This document shows positions 2,325-8,399 of a stretch of DNA of 33,420 nucleotides, piece after piece. This DNA is from Elusimicrobiota bacterium (lineage in GTDB: Bacteria > Elusimicrobiota > Elusimicrobia > UBA1565). The stretch covers positions 1-33,420 of the forward strand of contig JACRDU010000088.1 in NCBI GenBank assembly GCA_016218495.1. Reading direction: 5' to 3'. A program made the position numbers and the translations under genes. Under the pieces are notes generated by a model. It was not told the origin of the DNA. It was given only the letters and a program-made list of their open reading frames with translations, and did no database searches. Position 1 is the stretch's first letter; the number at the start of each line of letters is the position of its first letter.

Positions 2325-2346
2325 AATGGGAGCCAGGAGGGACGCG

Positions 2347-3066
2347 ATGAAAGAGATCAAGGTGCTGGACAAGGGCTTCGTGCGCCTCGTCGAGACGATG
2401 GGCGGCGACGAGGGCGTGGTGCAGGCCGCGCGCGTCTCCTACGCCGGGACCTCGAAGGGCGACGAGAAGGACAAGAAGCTCATCGCCTACCTGCTCAAGC
2501 ACCAGCACCTGACCCCCTTCGAGCACGCCCTCTTCAAGTTCCACGTGAAGTGCCCCATCTTCGTGGCCCGGCAGTGGTTCCGCCACCGCTTCGCCGCCTA
2601 CAACGAGATCAGCTTCCGCTACACCCAGACCGCCGAGGACTTCTACTTCCCCGAGGCCTGGCGCGCCCAGGACTTCAAGAACAAACAGGGCTCGGTGCGC
2701 TCCGAGGAGCTCGACCACGCGGCCCTCTCCAAGGAGTTCAAGGCCGCCGTCGCCCAGTCGTTCAAGGTCTACGAGGCCATGATCAAGGCCGGCGTGGCGC
2801 GGGAGATGGCGCGCATGGTACTGCCGGTCAACCTCTACACCGAGTTCTACTGGACCGTCAACGCGCGCAGCCTCATGAACTTCCTGAGCCTGCGCGCCGA
2901 CGGCCACGCCCAGGCCGAGATCCAGCGCTTCGCCGAGGCCCTGTCGGCCCACTTCGCGGCCTGCGCGCCGTGGACCTACGAGGCCTTCCTGGCCAACGTA
3001 TGGAAAGGGTCCAACGCGCGGCTCGACGCGCAGAAGGAGAAGGCGTGCGCGCCGTTGTCCTCCTGA
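2347..3066 (+). CDS. thyX: Flavin-dependent thymidylate synthase ThyX
   Basis: 239 residues. It makes dTMP from dUMP using FAD, NADPH and methylene-tetrahydrofolate. The ThyX signature RHRX7S is present as RHRFAAYNEIS, followed by FRYTQ. The C-terminal part has AREMARMVLPVNLYTEFYWT and the SLMNFLSLR helix, as in the family, and the length is normal. I chose the ATG at 2347 because AGGAGG sits 6 bases upstream of it; the ATG at 2326 has no such site. A TAGAAT at 2322-2327 could add a promoter inside the run. The 3' end overlaps the next gene by 22 bases. No thyA is in view, so this may be the cell's only thymidylate synthase (inference). Confidence 0.95.
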   Translation: MKEIKVLDKGFVRLVETMGGDEGVVQAARVSYAGTSKGDEKDKKLIAYLLKHQHLTPFEHALFKFHVKCPIFVARQWFRHRFAAYNEISFRYTQTAEDFYFPEAWRAQDFKNKQGSVRSEELDHAALSKEFKAAVAQSFKVYEAMIKAGVAREMARMVLPVNLYTEFYWTVNARSLMNFLSLRADGHAQAEIQRFAEALSAHFAACAPWTYEAFLANVWKGSNARLDAQKEKACAPLSS

Positions 3067-4154
3067 GCGCGGCCTTCCTGCTGGGAGCCTCCGCCCGCGC
3101 GGCGGAGCTCGCGCCGTCGACCGCGCCGGTGGCGGTGTCCGCCGTCCGGCGCGGGGTCATGAAGCTGCTCGTCCATGTGCAGGGCACCGTCCGCCCCGAG
3201 CAGGTGTACCGCCTCAAGTCCACCATCGAAGGCCGCATCGAGACCGTCGACAAGGCCCCCAACAGCTGGTCCGACGAGCGCGACCCCATCGGCACTTTGC
3301 TGACCAACGAGATGGCGGCGCTCGTCGACGCCAACTCGACGACCCCGGGCTCCGTGCTCGAGGACCGCTGGCAGCGGGTCTTCCAGCCGGTGCCCATCGC
3401 CTGCCCCGGCCGCTGCTTCGTCGTCAAGGTCTACGCGACCCCGCGCACCATGGTCCGGGCCGGCGGCCTGCTGGCCGAGGCGGCCGGCAAGCTGCGCCTC
3501 GTCGGGCGCGTCCGGCCCGGGGACACCCAGTGGGTGCGCGAAGGCCAGACCGTCTCCTTCTGGTCCAAGAAGGACCCCTCCCGCCGCCAGAGCGCCAAGA
3601 TCGAGCGCTTCGTGCGCGACGTCCAGGGCCAGCGCGTCGTGCCCGGCGGGACCTTCACGGTGCTGCTGACCCCCGAGGCCTGGCTCGACGCGAACACGGA
3701 GTGGGAGGGCGTCATCGAGGCCGAGGTGCGCAAGGACGTGCTCAGCGTCCCGACCAAGGCCCTGATCGTCCACGACGGGACGGCCTACCTCCCCATCCGG
3801 GTCTCCACCGGGGTGACGACCTACGACGAGACCCAGATCATCGCCGGGGTGCCCGAAGGGGCCTCCGTCCTCCTCATCGACCCGTCCTCGGCCTCCGGCC
3901 TCGGGCGGCACGTGCCCCCGCCGGAGCCTCTGGAGCGCTACTCGCTGGAGAAGGCCGGCCGCCGCGAGCGGCCCAAGAAGGCCGCGGCCGCCGACGAGGA
4001 AGAAGAGAGGCCCGCGCCCCGGCCCGCCACCATCGAGCCCGAGCGCTGGGAGCGCAAGCGGCGCAGCAAACAGAAGGCCGGCCCCATCGACGTGTTCCCG
4101 GACGACCGTCCGGGAGGAGAAAGGGATGACCGATTCCCCAGCGACCTCCGCTGA
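3045..4154 (+). CDS. Exported adaptor-like protein (resembles RND efflux membrane-fusion proteins)
   Basis: 369 residues from a GTG at 3045, preceded by the purine-rich AGGAGAAGG and overlapping the thyX end. It opens with a signal peptide (MRAVVLLSAAFLLGASARAA). The middle has a beta-rich stretch (RLVGRVRPGDTQWVREGQTV), then DVLSVPTKALIVHDGTAYLP and IIAGVPEGASVLLID. These resemble the barrel and membrane-proximal domains of HlyD/MacA/AcrA-type adaptors, where VLSVP and a final GL.EG..V are typical. There is no long alpha-hairpin and no lipoyl pair that I can recognise, and no transporter gene is nearby. The tail (about 300-369) is charged and Pro/Glu/Arg/Lys-rich and probably disordered. Function is unproven; a cell-envelope role is likely. 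Confidence 0.6.
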   Translation: MRAVVLLSAAFLLGASARAAELAPSTAPVAVSAVRRGVMKLLVHVQGTVRPEQVYRLKSTIEGRIETVDKAPNSWSDERDPIGTLLTNEMAALVDANSTTPGSVLEDRWQRVFQPVPIACPGRCFVVKVYATPRTMVRAGGLLAEAAGKLRLVGRVRPGDTQWVREGQTVSFWSKKDPSRRQSAKIERFVRDVQGQRVVPGGTFTVLLTPEAWLDANTEWEGVIEAEVRKDVLSVPTKALIVHDGTAYLPIRVSTGVTTYDETQIIAGVPEGASVLLIDPSSASGLGRHVPPPEPLERYSLEKAGRRERPKKAAAADEEEERPAPRPATIEPERWERKRRSKQKAGPIDVFPDDRPGGERDDRFPSDLR

Positions 4155-4704
4155 AGAGGGCGTGCTCTACGCCAGCCTGCAGGTCCTGCGCGTCGAACCG
4201 CGCTTCCGGGCCCTGATGGCCAACGAGAAGGTCGTCGCCCGCCAGGAGTTCATGGGCGCCTTCGACCGCGGCGCGGAGCGCGTGGCCACGGACGCCTTCA
4301 TCCTGACCGGCCTGTCCCCGCTGGGGGACCTGGCCGTCCTGCGCGTGAGCCGGCACCTGGCCGACCTGCACGCCGCCGTGGCCCTGCTCGCCGACGCCGG
4401 CCTCGGGCGGCACCTGACGCCGACCGACCTGTACCTGGGCACGCTCAAGGAGCCCCCGGCGCGGCAGGGGCGCATGTTCTGCGCGATACCGCTGACGGAC
4501 GCGCCGCGCGCCGGGGCGCCCAAGGGCGCGACGCTCTCCATCCTCGACGGAGCCGGGCTGGGCTCCGCCTCCTTCATGGCGCTGCTCCGCTCGGAGGACG
4601 CGCTGGCGGGCCGGAACTTCCTCAAGGCCCTCGGGAAATCCGCCGCGGCCCCGGTCCTCACCGGCCTGCACAGCGAGATCCGCGACATCGTGGACACCCT
4701 CTAG
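4126..4704 (+). CDS. Uncharacterised protein, possibly a remote chlorite-dismutase-like fold
   Basis: 192 residues. The start is supported by GGAGG 8 bases upstream, and the gene overlaps the previous one by 29 bases. There is no signal peptide, so it is likely cytoplasmic. Residues from about 12 to 110 (VLYASLQVLRVEPRFRAL, then FILTGLSPLGDLAVLRV, then GLGRHLTPTDLYLGTLKEP) resemble the first half of chlorite dismutase/HemQ-like dimeric alpha-beta barrels, where a 'GL..D.Dlm.w', 'glG.hl' and 'YLG.t' pattern occurs. The second half is short and unfamiliar, and I find no clear heme-ligand His. The family suggestion is weak; the gene itself is well supported by codon use and spacing. Confidence 0.6.
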   Translation: MTDSPATSAEEGVLYASLQVLRVEPRFRALMANEKVVARQEFMGAFDRGAERVATDAFILTGLSPLGDLAVLRVSRHLADLHAAVALLADAGLGRHLTPTDLYLGTLKEPPARQGRMFCAIPLTDAPRAGAPKGATLSILDGAGLGSASFMALLRSEDALAGRNFLKALGKSAAAPVLTGLHSEIRDIVDTL

Positions 4705-4712
4705 GGGACCGG

Positions 4713-7001
4713 GTGCGGAACAAGTCCTACCACATCCATCTCCACCTAGACCACCCCGACAGCGAGAACCCCTGGACCGAAGAGCCTGACATCGACCCCG
4801 CCGCCGAGCCCTTCGTCGACGCGGCCGAGCGCTGCACGCACCTCTCCTGGGGCCCGCTGTCGAGCGCCGAGCGCCGCGGGCGCGACGGACGCCTCCAGGC
4901 GCTCGAGAACGTCTGGGCGCTGGTCGGCTTCGACGCCGCCCCGGGGCTGCTGGCCCGGCTCGAGCGCCGCGCGCCGAAGGTCTTCGAGGCCGTGACGGCC
5001 GGCGGCCGCGGCGCCGCCGCGGCCACGGCGTTCCCCCCGCTCGTCCTCCCTCTGGCCGACGCCGCCGACCGGCGCGCGGCGGTGCGCTGGGGGCTGAGGG
5101 ACTTCCGGCGCCGCTTCGGCCGCCCCGCGGCGGGCTTCCGCCCCCCCGGCGGAGCCGCCGACGACGCGACCCTGGCCCTGCTCGCCCGCGAGGGGCTCTC
5201 CTTCGCCCTGCTCCCCGCCGCGGCGGCGGCGCGGACCCGCGCCCCCGGCTCGGCCTGGCTGGAGTCGGCCCCCGAGACGCTGGACTGCTCGCGCCCCTAC
5301 CTGTGGCGCTCCAAGGACGAGCCCGGCCTGTCCCTGCCCGTCTTCTTCATCCCGCCCGGCCCCGACCCCGAGGCGCTCTTCCTGAGCCGGCCGCGCCTCG
5401 GCGGGACGGCGCCGGTCCCCGGCCCCGAAGACCCCGAAGAGGCGGGCGAGAGGCTGGCCGCCAAGCTGGTCGACTCCCTGCGGGTCAACGACGCCGCCCA
5501 GCTGGCCCATGCCGCCTTCGACGCCTCCTTCTTCGGCCTGCGCCTGCCCGGCGGAGAGCGGACCCTGGCCCGCGCGCTGTCCGTCCTGGAGAGCGAGGCC
5601 CCGGCGGGGGCGGCCAGCCACGCCGACTTCCTCGCGCTGTTCCCCCCGCCGCAGGAGGTCGAGGTCCGCTGCGACGCGGCGAGCCGGCGGACGCCGCTCA
5701 GGACCGCCCTCGAATCGCTCTCGCTCGGGCTGTCGGCCGCGGCCCGCGCCGCCTGGACCGGCCTGGTCCGGGACCCCGACGCCGCCGTGGACCTGGCCGG
5801 GGACCTGGCCTTCGACCACTCCCACGCCGCGCAGGAGCGCTTCCTCGGCCGGGTCATGGCGCGCCACCCCCGCCCCGACGATGCCGTGCGCGCGCTGCGC
5901 CTGGCCGACCTCGAGCTCTGGCGGCTGCGCTCGCTGGGCCGCTGGGGTTTCGAGGACCGGGACCCCTCCGGGCCCGACGCCGTGCAGGCCCTGCGCTGCG
6001 CCGCGCGGGCGCTCGACGGCGCCGCGCGGGCCCTGGGCCGCGCGGCCGCCGAGCCGCTCGAGAAGTCCCTGACCGAAGCGCTCTCCGGCGTCCCCTCGCG
6101 GGGGACGGCCTTTGCCAACGCCGCGGCCGTGTACCAGCGCCTAGTCGTCCCCGAGCGCCTGGACGCCGCGCGCCTGGCCGCCCACCTGGCGGCCGCCGAC
6201 CACCTCTTTCACGGGCCCGACCCGGCCGGCCCCGCCTGCGCGCCGCCGGTCTGGGAGGCCGAGGTACGGCCCCTGCTCCGGCGCTGCATGCCGGACGGCC
6301 GCTCCTGGCGCTCCCTGTCGGTGCTTTCCGTCGAACTCCGCCACCGCAGGACCTTCGAGGCCTGGTCGGGGGCCGCCGTCGTGCGCCAGCGCGGGACCGC
6401 GGACTTCGAGGTCAGGTCGGCCGCCGTGACCCCGTCCGAGCGGGGCCCGCTGGCCGCCAAGGCCGACGCGGCCTTCCTGGCCGGGACCGAGGACGCCTTG
6501 CGGGCCGCGCTGGACGCCTCCTGCGGCCCGGCCTCCTGGTCGCTCGACGCCCTGCTGCCCGCGCAGCGCCGCGCGGCGACGCGGGCCTTCCGCGAGCGCG
6601 GGACGCCCGAGCGGCGCGGCCGCCTCGAAGCCTTCGCCGCGCTGTCGCGCCGCTCCGGAGCCTCCCCCGACGCATGGGCCGCGGCCCTGGACGCGCTGGG
6701 CGGCGCCGCGCCCCCGGACTCCCTGCCCGCCGCGCCGCTTTGCCGCATTGCCGCCCTGCGCGCGGCCGAGGCCTTCGCGCTCGAGCCGGGCCCCGGGACC
6801 CTGGCCCCGCTCCTGACCCTGCTCGATGCGGGCCGCCGCGCGGGCCTGAGCTTCCCGCTCTGGGAGCTCCGGGCCCGGGCCTGGCCCGCCCTGCCGCGCT
6901 GCGCCGACGGGGCCGGGACCGCCCGCCTGGCGGCCCTGCTCGGCCTGCCCGCCCCTCAACCGCTCCCGGCCGGAGGAACCCATGGTGACCAGACGCCTTA
7001 A
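4713..7001 (+). CDS. GH57/DUF3536-like protein with apparently degenerate active site
   Basis: 762 residues from a GTG 8 bases after the previous stop, with GGGG upstream. The order of motifs follows the GH57 proteins that carry DUF3536: an N-terminal HIHLHLDH...ENPW (7-21), a 'GPTLLSWLE-P'-like segment (VGFDAAPGLLARLERRAP, 71-88), LVLPLADAADRRAAVRWGLRDFRRRFGRP (110-138), and a C-terminal ALRCAARAL...VYQRLVVPERLDAARLAAHLA. In active relatives the nucleophile lies in a WLPET-like motif and the acid Asp in a DGETFGHH-like motif. Here the sites read FRPPGGAAD (142-150) and FDASFFGLRL (269-278), and the His of the 'YNHmILPLA' strand is gone. An alpha-glucan hydrolase or transferase reaction is thus unlikely; sugar binding is possible. 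The gene overlaps the phoH-like gene by 20 bases. Confidence 0.7.
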   Translation: MRNKSYHIHLHLDHPDSENPWTEEPDIDPAAEPFVDAAERCTHLSWGPLSSAERRGRDGRLQALENVWALVGFDAAPGLLARLERRAPKVFEAVTAGGRGAAAATAFPPLVLPLADAADRRAAVRWGLRDFRRRFGRPAAGFRPPGGAADDATLALLAREGLSFALLPAAAAARTRAPGSAWLESAPETLDCSRPYLWRSKDEPGLSLPVFFIPPGPDPEALFLSRPRLGGTAPVPGPEDPEEAGERLAAKLVDSLRVNDAAQLAHAAFDASFFGLRLPGGERTLARALSVLESEAPAGAASHADFLALFPPPQEVEVRCDAASRRTPLRTALESLSLGLSAAARAAWTGLVRDPDAAVDLAGDLAFDHSHAAQERFLGRVMARHPRPDDAVRALRLADLELWRLRSLGRWGFEDRDPSGPDAVQALRCAARALDGAARALGRAAAEPLEKSLTEALSGVPSRGTAFANAAAVYQRLVVPERLDAARLAAHLAAADHLFHGPDPAGPACAPPVWEAEVRPLLRRCMPDGRSWRSLSVLSVELRHRRTFEAWSGAAVVRQRGTADFEVRSAAVTPSERGPLAAKADAAFLAGTEDALRAALDASCGPASWSLDALLPAQRRAATRAFRERGTPERRGRLEAFAALSRRSGASPDAWAAALDALGGAAPPDSLPAAPLCRIAALRAAEAFALEPGPGTLAPLLTLLDAGRRAGLSFPLWELRARAWPALPRCADGAGTARLAALLGLPAPQPLPAGGTHGDQTP

Positions 7002-7947
7002 GCTCAACGACGACGCCGAGGCCTTGGCCCTGCTCGGCGAGCAGGACTCCAAGCTCAAACGGCTCGAGCGCGAGTTCGGCGTGGAGATGTTCGTCCGCCA
7101 CGACCCCGACGGGCGCGAGCTCCACCTGTCGGTGCGCGGCTCCCCCCAGCGCGTCGAGAAGGCCGTGCGGCGCCTGCGCGAGCGGCTCGACGCGGTCCGG
7201 GCCGGAGAGGTGGACGAGGAGCGCCCCTCCCCCTCGTTCCCGACGGGGACGGCCCCGGTGCCCGACGACGCCGTCTTCGTGTCGGCCTACGGGAAGGCGG
7301 TGCGCCCCCGCGGGGCCCGGCAGCAGGAGTACGTCGACGCCATCGGGCGGGGCGACCTGGTCTTCGGCGTGGGCCCGGCCGGCACGGGCAAGACCTACCT
7401 CGCGGTGGCCTGCGCGCTCAAAGCGCTCCTCGCGCGCGACTGCCAGCGCGTCATCCTCACCCGCCCGGTCGTCGAGGCGGGAGAGAAGCTCGGCTACCTG
7501 CCCGGCGACTTCAACGAGAAGGTCAACCCCTACCTGCGCCCGCTCTACGACGCGTTCTGGTCGATGCTCGGCCCCGACAAGTTCCGCCTGTGGCGTTCGG
7601 AGGAGGTGGTCGAGGTCGTGCCGCTGGCCTACATGCGCGGGCGCACGCTCGAGGACGCGTTCATAATCCTCGACGAGGCGCAGAACACCACCATCGAGCA
7701 GATGAAGATGTTCCTCACGCGCATGGGCACCGGCTCGCGGGTCGTCGTCACCGGCGACATCACCCAGATCGACCTGGAGCGGCCGCACCGCTCGGGCCTG
7801 GTCCTCATCGAGCGCATCCTGCACGGGGTCAAGGGCGCGAAGTTCGTGCACTTCCAGCAGGAGGACGTGGTGCGCCACGCATTGGTGAAGGACATCCTGA
7901 AGGCCTTCGACGTCTGGGCCGACGCGGAAGGGAGGGAGAAGCGATGA
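6982..7947 (+). CDS. ybeZ: PhoH-like ATPase (YbeZ)
   Basis: 321 residues with GGAGG just before the ATG. Residues 1-75 form a small KH-like N-terminal part. The P-loop ATPase domain follows: VRPRGARQQEYVDAI, Walker A GPAGTGKT (131-138), VILTRPVVEAGEKLGYLPGD, Walker B IILDEAQN near 227-234, and the sensor VVTGDITQIDL. This is the classic PhoH/YbeZ pattern. YbeZ is thought to act with the endonuclease YbeY in rRNA processing and ribosome quality control; the next gene is ybeY with a 4-base ATGA overlap, the usual arrangement. Confidence 0.93.
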   Translation: MVTRRLKLNDDAEALALLGEQDSKLKRLEREFGVEMFVRHDPDGRELHLSVRGSPQRVEKAVRRLRERLDAVRAGEVDEERPSPSFPTGTAPVPDDAVFVSAYGKAVRPRGARQQEYVDAIGRGDLVFGVGPAGTGKTYLAVACALKALLARDCQRVILTRPVVEAGEKLGYLPGDFNEKVNPYLRPLYDAFWSMLGPDKFRLWRSEEVVEVVPLAYMRGRTLEDAFIILDEAQNTTIEQMKMFLTRMGTGSRVVVTGDITQIDLERPHRSGLVLIERILHGVKGAKFVHFQQEDVVRHALVKDILKAFDVWADAEGREKR

Positions 7948-8399
7948 AGGTCCTCGTATTCAACGCCGGCGTGCTCGGCGCCGATGGCGAGACGGCCGTC
8001 GCGAAGGGGGTGCGCGCGGCGCTGGGACCCCGGGCGCGCCGCCCGGGCGAGCTCTGCGTGGTGTTCGCCTCCGACGCCCAGGTCCGCGCCCTCAACAAGC
8101 GCCACCTGGACCGGGACCGCGACACCGACGTCATCGCCTTCCCCTATCCCAAGACCTCGGGACAGGCGGACGCCCCCTTCGGCGACGTCTATGTGGCGCT
8201 GGGCGTGGCGCGCCGCCAGGCCAAGGCCTTGGGGCACGCCCTCCTGAAAGAAGCGGTGACCCTGGCCGTGCACGGGACCTTGCACCTGGTCGGCTACGAC
8301 GACCACGCCCCGGCGGACAAGCGGCGGATGTTCAAGCGCCAGGACAGGCTCGTGGCGGGCGTGCTCGGAGATGGGAAAGAAGAAGCGCGCCGCCGCTGA
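7944..8399 (+). CDS. ybeY: Endoribonuclease YbeY
   Basis: 151 residues, starting at the ATG in the ATGA overlap with ybeZ. YbeY is a metal-dependent RNase that acts in 16S rRNA 3'-end maturation and quality control. The family signatures are present: LNKRHLDRDRDTDVIAFP, then GDVYVALGVARRQAKALG, then the metal motif HGTLHLVGYDDH. The usual motif is HGxLHLxGYDH with three His ligands; here an Asp stands at the third position and a His one residue later, a variation also found in some other phyla. The 3' end overlaps the O-antigen ligase-like gene by 29 bases. Confidence 0.93.
   Translation: MKVLVFNAGVLGADGETAVAKGVRAALGPRARRPGELCVVFASDAQVRALNKRHLDRDRDTDVIAFPYPKTSGQADAPFGDVYVALGVARRQAKALGHALLKEAVTLAVHGTLHLVGYDDHAPADKRRMFKRQDRLVAGVLGDGKEEARRR

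Follow-up and report, generated by a model that had tools for sequence, protein, structure and literature searches.

The gene at positions 4713 to 7001 of the window (i.e., the whole stretch of 33,420 nucleotides that was analysed) is a real gene in an Elusimicrobia-type genome, and its product, here termed GH57B, is a diverged GH57 protein. Comparison of GH57B with an intact paralogue and with copies from related genomes favours, on balance, the view that this protein lost glycosidase activity after a gene duplication and has since persisted as a non-catalytic protein. That the retaining GH57 mechanism is lost, as judged from the aligned nucleophile position, is well supported. The features referred to below are as follows.

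2326 to 3066, + strand: thyX, conserved upstream neighbour (Pfam, synteny)
4126 to 4704, + strand: shortened chlorite dismutase/HemQ-family protein, 192 aa (profile, E 2e-11)
4713 to 7001, + strand: GH57B, GH57/DUF3536-type protein of 762 aa without the nucleophile Glu (ORF, profile, alignment, tree, model)
4713 to 5672, + strand: ex-catalytic barrel, about residues 1-320 (better conserved half in the three same-genus orthologues; GH57 structures align to residues 1-435)
4737 to 4745, + strand: HxH motif, His9 and His11 (kept in 8/8 family copies)
5037 to 5039, + strand: Pro109, replacing the NHMILPLA His (alignment)
5148 to 5150, + strand: Gly146 (GGC), replacing the nucleophile Glu (alignment)
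5520 to 5522, + strand: Asp270, kept at the proton-donor position (alignment)
5688 to 6200, + strand: DUF3536-matching part, residues 326-496 (Pfam; the Cys/His motif immediately before it is deleted)
6982 to 7947, + strand: phoH, sharing 20 bases with the end of GH57B (Pfam, synteny)
7944 to 8399, + strand: ybeY (Pfam, synteny)

Active-site residues and fold of GH57B

As claimed in the first-pass annotation, positions 4713 to 7001 hold an open reading frame of 762 residues on the + strand, which was called with a GTG start codon. Description of the product as a GH57/DUF3536 relative stood with respect to fold and descent and only in part with respect to Pfam. Thus, the score of GH57B against DUF3536 (PF12055) was 76.6 bits, above the curated cut-off of 25 bits, for a match that covered residues 326-496 and only positions 6-172 of the 284 in the profile, whereas the Pfam GH57 model gave no match to GH57B at an E value of 1 or less. 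The latter model matched the paralogue from the same genome (paralogue A) with 48.2 bits. An NCBIfam search of GH57B gave no match. The GH57 architecture of a (beta/alpha)7 barrel followed by helices was evident from structure matches, and homology from a tree that placed GH57B with intact paralogues. The AF2 model of GH57B (pLDDT 91.8, pTM 0.92; paralogue A, pLDDT 89.8, pTM 0.87) found its best matches among GH57 enzymes, in agreement with the earlier assignment to this family. The top VIA-align match was the GH57 amylopullulanase 9ihu (Z 26.6 over 324 residues), and the match to 1k1x (Z 22.5 over 328 residues) was confined to model residues 2-475. With Foldseek, 1k1x was matched at E 8.6e-08 and the first 25 rows were all GH57 enzymes. 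GH38 and CE4 enzymes, which are metal-dependent, were also among the VIA-align matches, at lower Z.

The position of the nucleophile was readily identified, as RPPGG of GH57B paired column by column with WLPET. In this alignment Gly146 stands at the Glu column, and Ala was noted at the same position in both same-genus orthologues (L033 and L034). Loss of the nucleophile, as originally described, was thereby confirmed. Sequencing or assembly error behind this loss was ruled out, since three genomes of the genus agree. The companion claim that the acid motif had also been lost was not borne out. FDASFFG aligned with TDGETYG without a gap, and the ungapped pairing of FDAS with DGE places Asp270 at the proton-donor position; the reading of a lost acid was thus rejected because the alignment retains the catalytic Asp. 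This residue is kept in GH57B and L033 and is Ser in L034. To describe GH57B as a large enzyme without its catalytic residues is therefore an overstatement with respect to the Asp, although the description holds for the Glu, which three species have replaced by Gly or Ala, and is further borne out by the loss of other pocket residues.

When the family profile was compared with 1K1W, the 4-alpha-glucanotransferase of T. litoralis, residue 123 paired with the Glu of WLPE and residue 214 with the Asp of DGE; we take these two residues to be the catalytic nucleophile and acid of that enzyme. The T. litoralis enzyme (1K1W/1K1X) and GH57B have the barrel fold in common, and the proton-donor Asp position is kept in GH57B, whereas the nucleophile position is Gly. 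PMC6037648 places the GH57 nucleophile, a Glu, on strand 4 and the proton donor, an Asp, on strand 7.

The His of the NHMILPLA strand was correctly described as gone, its place being taken in GH57B by Pro109. Three further changes had gone unreported in the first-pass annotation. Both His of GHH are replaced in GH57B; the Tyr and Gln that follow HxH are replaced, within the genus, by Asp13-His14, the HxH itself being intact; and a segment, WSCxHGxxRWxxDCGC, is deleted in GH57B, L033, L037 and L039. In all eight copies from the family of the window, HxH had both of its His, and the His of NHMI and the two of GHH were absent. Asp was found at position 13 in six of these eight copies while His14 was confined to the genus. 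The Cys/His motif of DUF3536-type proteins, defined from intact copies in the present alignment as WSCxHGxxRWxxDCGC plus TSCGWFF, is missing from GH57B through deletion of the former and replacement of the latter. Overall, GH57B retains 40 of the 90 columns that are near-invariant among intact copies.

Paralogue A, the B locus and loss of catalytic residues

An intact paralogue, the possibility of which had been raised with the original description, was found in the same genome as a DUF3536 protein with complete motifs (HGHFYQPPRENPW, YNHMIMPLAD, WLPETAVD and TDGETYGHHH). This protein, named A, scored 293.5 bits against DUF3536 compared with 79.3 bits for GH57B in the same six-frame search, and its gene adjoins those for GlgB (983 bits) and TreZ (632 bits). 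B denotes the copy at the thyX-hlyD-GH57-phoH-ybeY locus, including GH57B itself, upstream of which lie an HlyD-like gene and thyX. phoH adjoined the GH57 gene in 31 of 33 B loci (window excluded), and the other two loci were near contig ends.

GH57B was matched in 56 of 57 genomes (its own and those of relatives), from which 59 stretches provided 58 aligned GH57 rows and 57 tree rows. Fragments shorter than 300 aa (L052, L060) and, for split genes, the second piece (L064, L081) stayed outside the alignment and tree; L064 (366 aa) was also omitted from the tree. The tree, calculated under LG+G4 rather than the mixture model that the program uses by default, was rooted at the midpoint and comprised 23 A rows and 34 B-locus rows; single copies from families f3 and f4 were counted among the latter. 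The nearest named relatives were Elusimicrobia metagenome genomes, as indicated by a scan with the family alignment that returned eight loci (seven titled Elusimicrobia and one titled 'bacterium'); a scan of genome contigs with the single protein gave no match, nor did a search of plasmids. Each of the five f3 and f4 genomes (completeness 77-91%) contained matches at one place only, and the phoH locus is thus probably the older GH57 site. This conclusion leans mainly on synteny, since the tree root is weak, as is the placement of the f3 and f4 single copies (75/61).

Losses of catalytic residues were restricted to the B locus. Thus, the Glu was lost in 7 of 34 B-locus rows (kept in 27) and the Asp in 6 (kept in 28), with at least one of the two lost in 9, whereas neither was lost in any of the 23 A rows. 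Parsimony on the 57-row tree placed three Glu changes and three Asp changes, every one at the B locus. Within the family of the window, both residues were kept in three of eight rows (L035, L038 and L040), Asp alone was lost in two, Glu alone in two (GH57B and L033) and both in one. Both residues were also lost, independently, from the B copies L041, L046 and L047 of genus g7 in family f2, while three other genomes of this genus (G014, G022 and G049) have a thyX-hlyD-phoH locus with GH57 absent between hlyD and phoH. One single loss, that of L042 (genome G050, genus g10), may be an error because the Glu-to-Gly change is one base relative to L044, the GH57 frame is short (556 aa) and the phoH match is in two pieces; the Glu loss, the frame and the phoH split may all be assembly errors.

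A glgC gene was noted upstream of the GH57B-type gene at the B locus in families f3 and f4 and in much of f2, at a distance of 0-38 bases in 9 (including L042) of the 17 rows with syntenic glgC and of 0.7-4.4 kb in the other 8. Both of the two syntenic copies that were tested passed the PRK00844 and TIGR02091 cut-offs. The arrangement suggests that glgC and an intact GH57/DUF3536 gene may constitute a two-gene glycogen unit. Syntenic glgC was absent from the B locus in all eight rows of the window family, the genomes of which carry more distant glgC genes (37-47% identity) elsewhere. Both catalytic residues were kept in 16 of 17 rows with syntenic glgC versus 7 of 14 without, L047, L048 and L073 being outside these counts since they contain too little upstream sequence. 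The seven rows that kept both residues without syntenic glgC, three from the window family (L035, L038, L040) and four from outside it (L076, L079, L083, L084), count against a strict link. Among four independent tree pairs (mean of 200 pairings), 1.5 went the same way, 0.0 the opposite way and 2.5 showed no difference, far too few for significance. A link between the loss of glgC and that of the active site is thus suggestive only. In separate observations, glgC was seen immediately upstream of intact GH57/DUF3536 genes at L044:9216-10484, L036:3420-4622, L049:3582-4811 and L051:3493-4683.

Constraint on GH57B and erosion of the neighbouring gene

The constraint on GH57B is weaker than that on paralogue A but real, as was evident from substitution ratios, distances, a shuffle test and conservation of the barrel. 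NG86 dN/dS values within the genus were 0.45-0.52 for B versus 0.29-0.39 for A, although these are rough, with GC3 at about 0.95 and synonymous sites close to saturation. The corresponding ratio of B to A distances was 1.62-1.83, whereas many pairs of f2 copies with an intact active site had B and A distances that were about equal, and ratios of at most 1.54 were seen among the exceptions. Amino-acid identity between GH57B and L034 was 0.591. When the observed differences were shuffled over positions in 1000 trials, identity averaged 0.431 and never exceeded 0.466; the remaining two genus pairs behaved likewise. The stop-codon part of this test was weak, as a mean of 5.5 stops was expected, yet some of the shuffles also contained none. 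Identical positions between GH57B and L034 numbered 208 of 317 in the barrel half and 236 of 441 in the rest. The B gene was present in all eight genomes of the window family, seven times as a complete frame and once truncated at a contig end. Together, the identity above the shuffle maximum and the retention of the gene throughout the family uphold the claim that it has been kept under selection.

GH57B sits tightly between phoH and the gene at 4126-4704, the product of which lacks the stretch that holds EVHTQ in solved structures. This stretch is presumably the heme-ligand region, carrying the heme-ligand His of the family. No HemQ model matched the copy in the window, while a longer copy from family f4 (L051) matched one at 130.7 bits, under the cut-off of 235. 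The 4126-4704 gene is itself eroding (NG86 ratio of 0.68-0.90) and appears to be a second enzyme relic, directly beside GH57B. In genus g4, B is present and the HemQ-like gene is absent from the 129-171 base gap before B, and B is thus independent of that gene.

Interpretation of the B copy and comparison with known systems

The history that best accommodates these results would begin with duplication of an ancestral alpha-glucan GH57/DUF3536 enzyme, GH57B being the copy left at the probably ancestral locus and A the copy, always intact, that occurs in many relatives and lies beside glgB and treZ in this genome. The active site of B has been dismantled bit by bit in the family of the window; in the genus of the window the catalytic Glu has disappeared, HxH persists and the Asp is retained in two of three species. 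Purifying selection has preserved the fold together with an open frame and a large part of the barrel. Lacking the Glu, the protein should form no covalent glycosyl-enzyme and hence would not act as a retaining glycosidase or transferase. As a last step, GH57B would have become a non-catalytic protein that most plausibly serves alpha-glucan metabolism as a scaffold or regulatory partner, although this role is a guess. A binding or regulatory role, as proposed in the first-pass annotation, is one that we only infer, and retention of just 40 of 90 near-invariant columns, with many changes around the former active site, argues against the original ligand being bound as before.

The main rival to a kept non-catalytic role, which we regard as the most likely reading, is relaxed decay, in which a redundant copy that lost both its job and its glgC partner is eroding toward deletion with no new role. 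This is possible although considerably less probable. The faster evolution of B than of A would be expected for decay too and, like degeneration of the upstream HemQ-like gene, counts against a kept role; decay would also fit the g7 genomes with both residues lost or with no GH57 at the locus, as well as the more frequent retention of both residues beside syntenic glgC. It does not readily explain why the B gene persists in every genome of the window family, why amino-acid identity so clearly exceeds that of the shuffles or why the formerly catalytic half is better conserved than the tail.

Readings in which GH57B is still an enzyme were given little weight. A pocket rebuilt from HxHxDH, Asp270 and Arg277 for, e.g., a metal-dependent or inverting reaction is improbable; HxH in 8/8 family copies, Asp13 in 6/8, the genus-specific His14 and the fold shared with GH38 and CE4 enzymes are in its favour, but the position of Asp270 varies even within the genus, being Ser in L034. 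Lower still is the probability that GH57B remains a weak GH57 enzyme with a nucleophile from elsewhere in the chain, e.g., the conserved Asp150. While Asp270 and HxH are kept and the Asp at position 150 hardly varies among the 37 rows of alignment A1, the latter is equally conserved in intact copies and is thus no replacement nucleophile, and GHH, NHMI and the Cys motif were lost along with the Glu. A more elaborate version of the non-catalytic reading would make GH57B a former glycogen enzyme of the phoH-ybeY cluster with a pocket rebuilt from HxHxDH and Asp270, which might sense alpha-glucan or a small ligand and link storage-carbon status to the cluster, with parallel conversions in other lineages; this too is a long shot.

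Loss of catalysis after duplication is an ordinary event, but the present series is unusually complete. Dead glycosidases are known, usually as end points only, whereas here one fixed genomic position shows the path, from an intact gene, often beside glgC, to the stepwise loss of Asp or Glu in different lineages that have a second, intact copy. The locus thus offers a natural series for the order in which an active site is dismantled and for the usefulness of what remains, and it cautions that a DUF3536/GH57 annotation is no proof of an active amylase.

Among known systems, the GH57 'like' proteins of Janecek and co-workers are described in PMC6037648 as having the nucleophile and/or proton donor replaced and as being, in all likelihood, something other than typical GH57 enzymes. 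GH57B resembles them in the replacement of a catalytic residue, having lost the Glu and kept the Asp. The 'like' groups in PMC6037648 are named for other GH57 specificities, whereas the case of GH57B is one of recurrent losses at a single syntenic locus with intermediates present. Among the papers searched, none mentioned GH57 together with pseudoenzymes, and DUF3536 occurred in PMC11206854 alone. The latter concerns the closest characterised protein found, by motif, PoGH57 of Pontibacter sp. SGAir0037, which is described there as a DUF3536-annotated GH57 protein of 93 kDa with motifs HGHFY and ETYGHH and with low amylose activity by hydrolysis, a 4-alpha-glucanotransferase being suggested. 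As given in PMC11206854, the PoGH57 motifs are intact and the same as those of paralogue A, a likeness judged by motif. Intact DUF3536 GH57 proteins (L053:3375-5792 and relatives) were also noted to share the Cys/His motif WSCxHGxxRWxxDCGC plus TSCGWFF, the region of which in paralogue A (residues 317-333) was modelled with low confidence.
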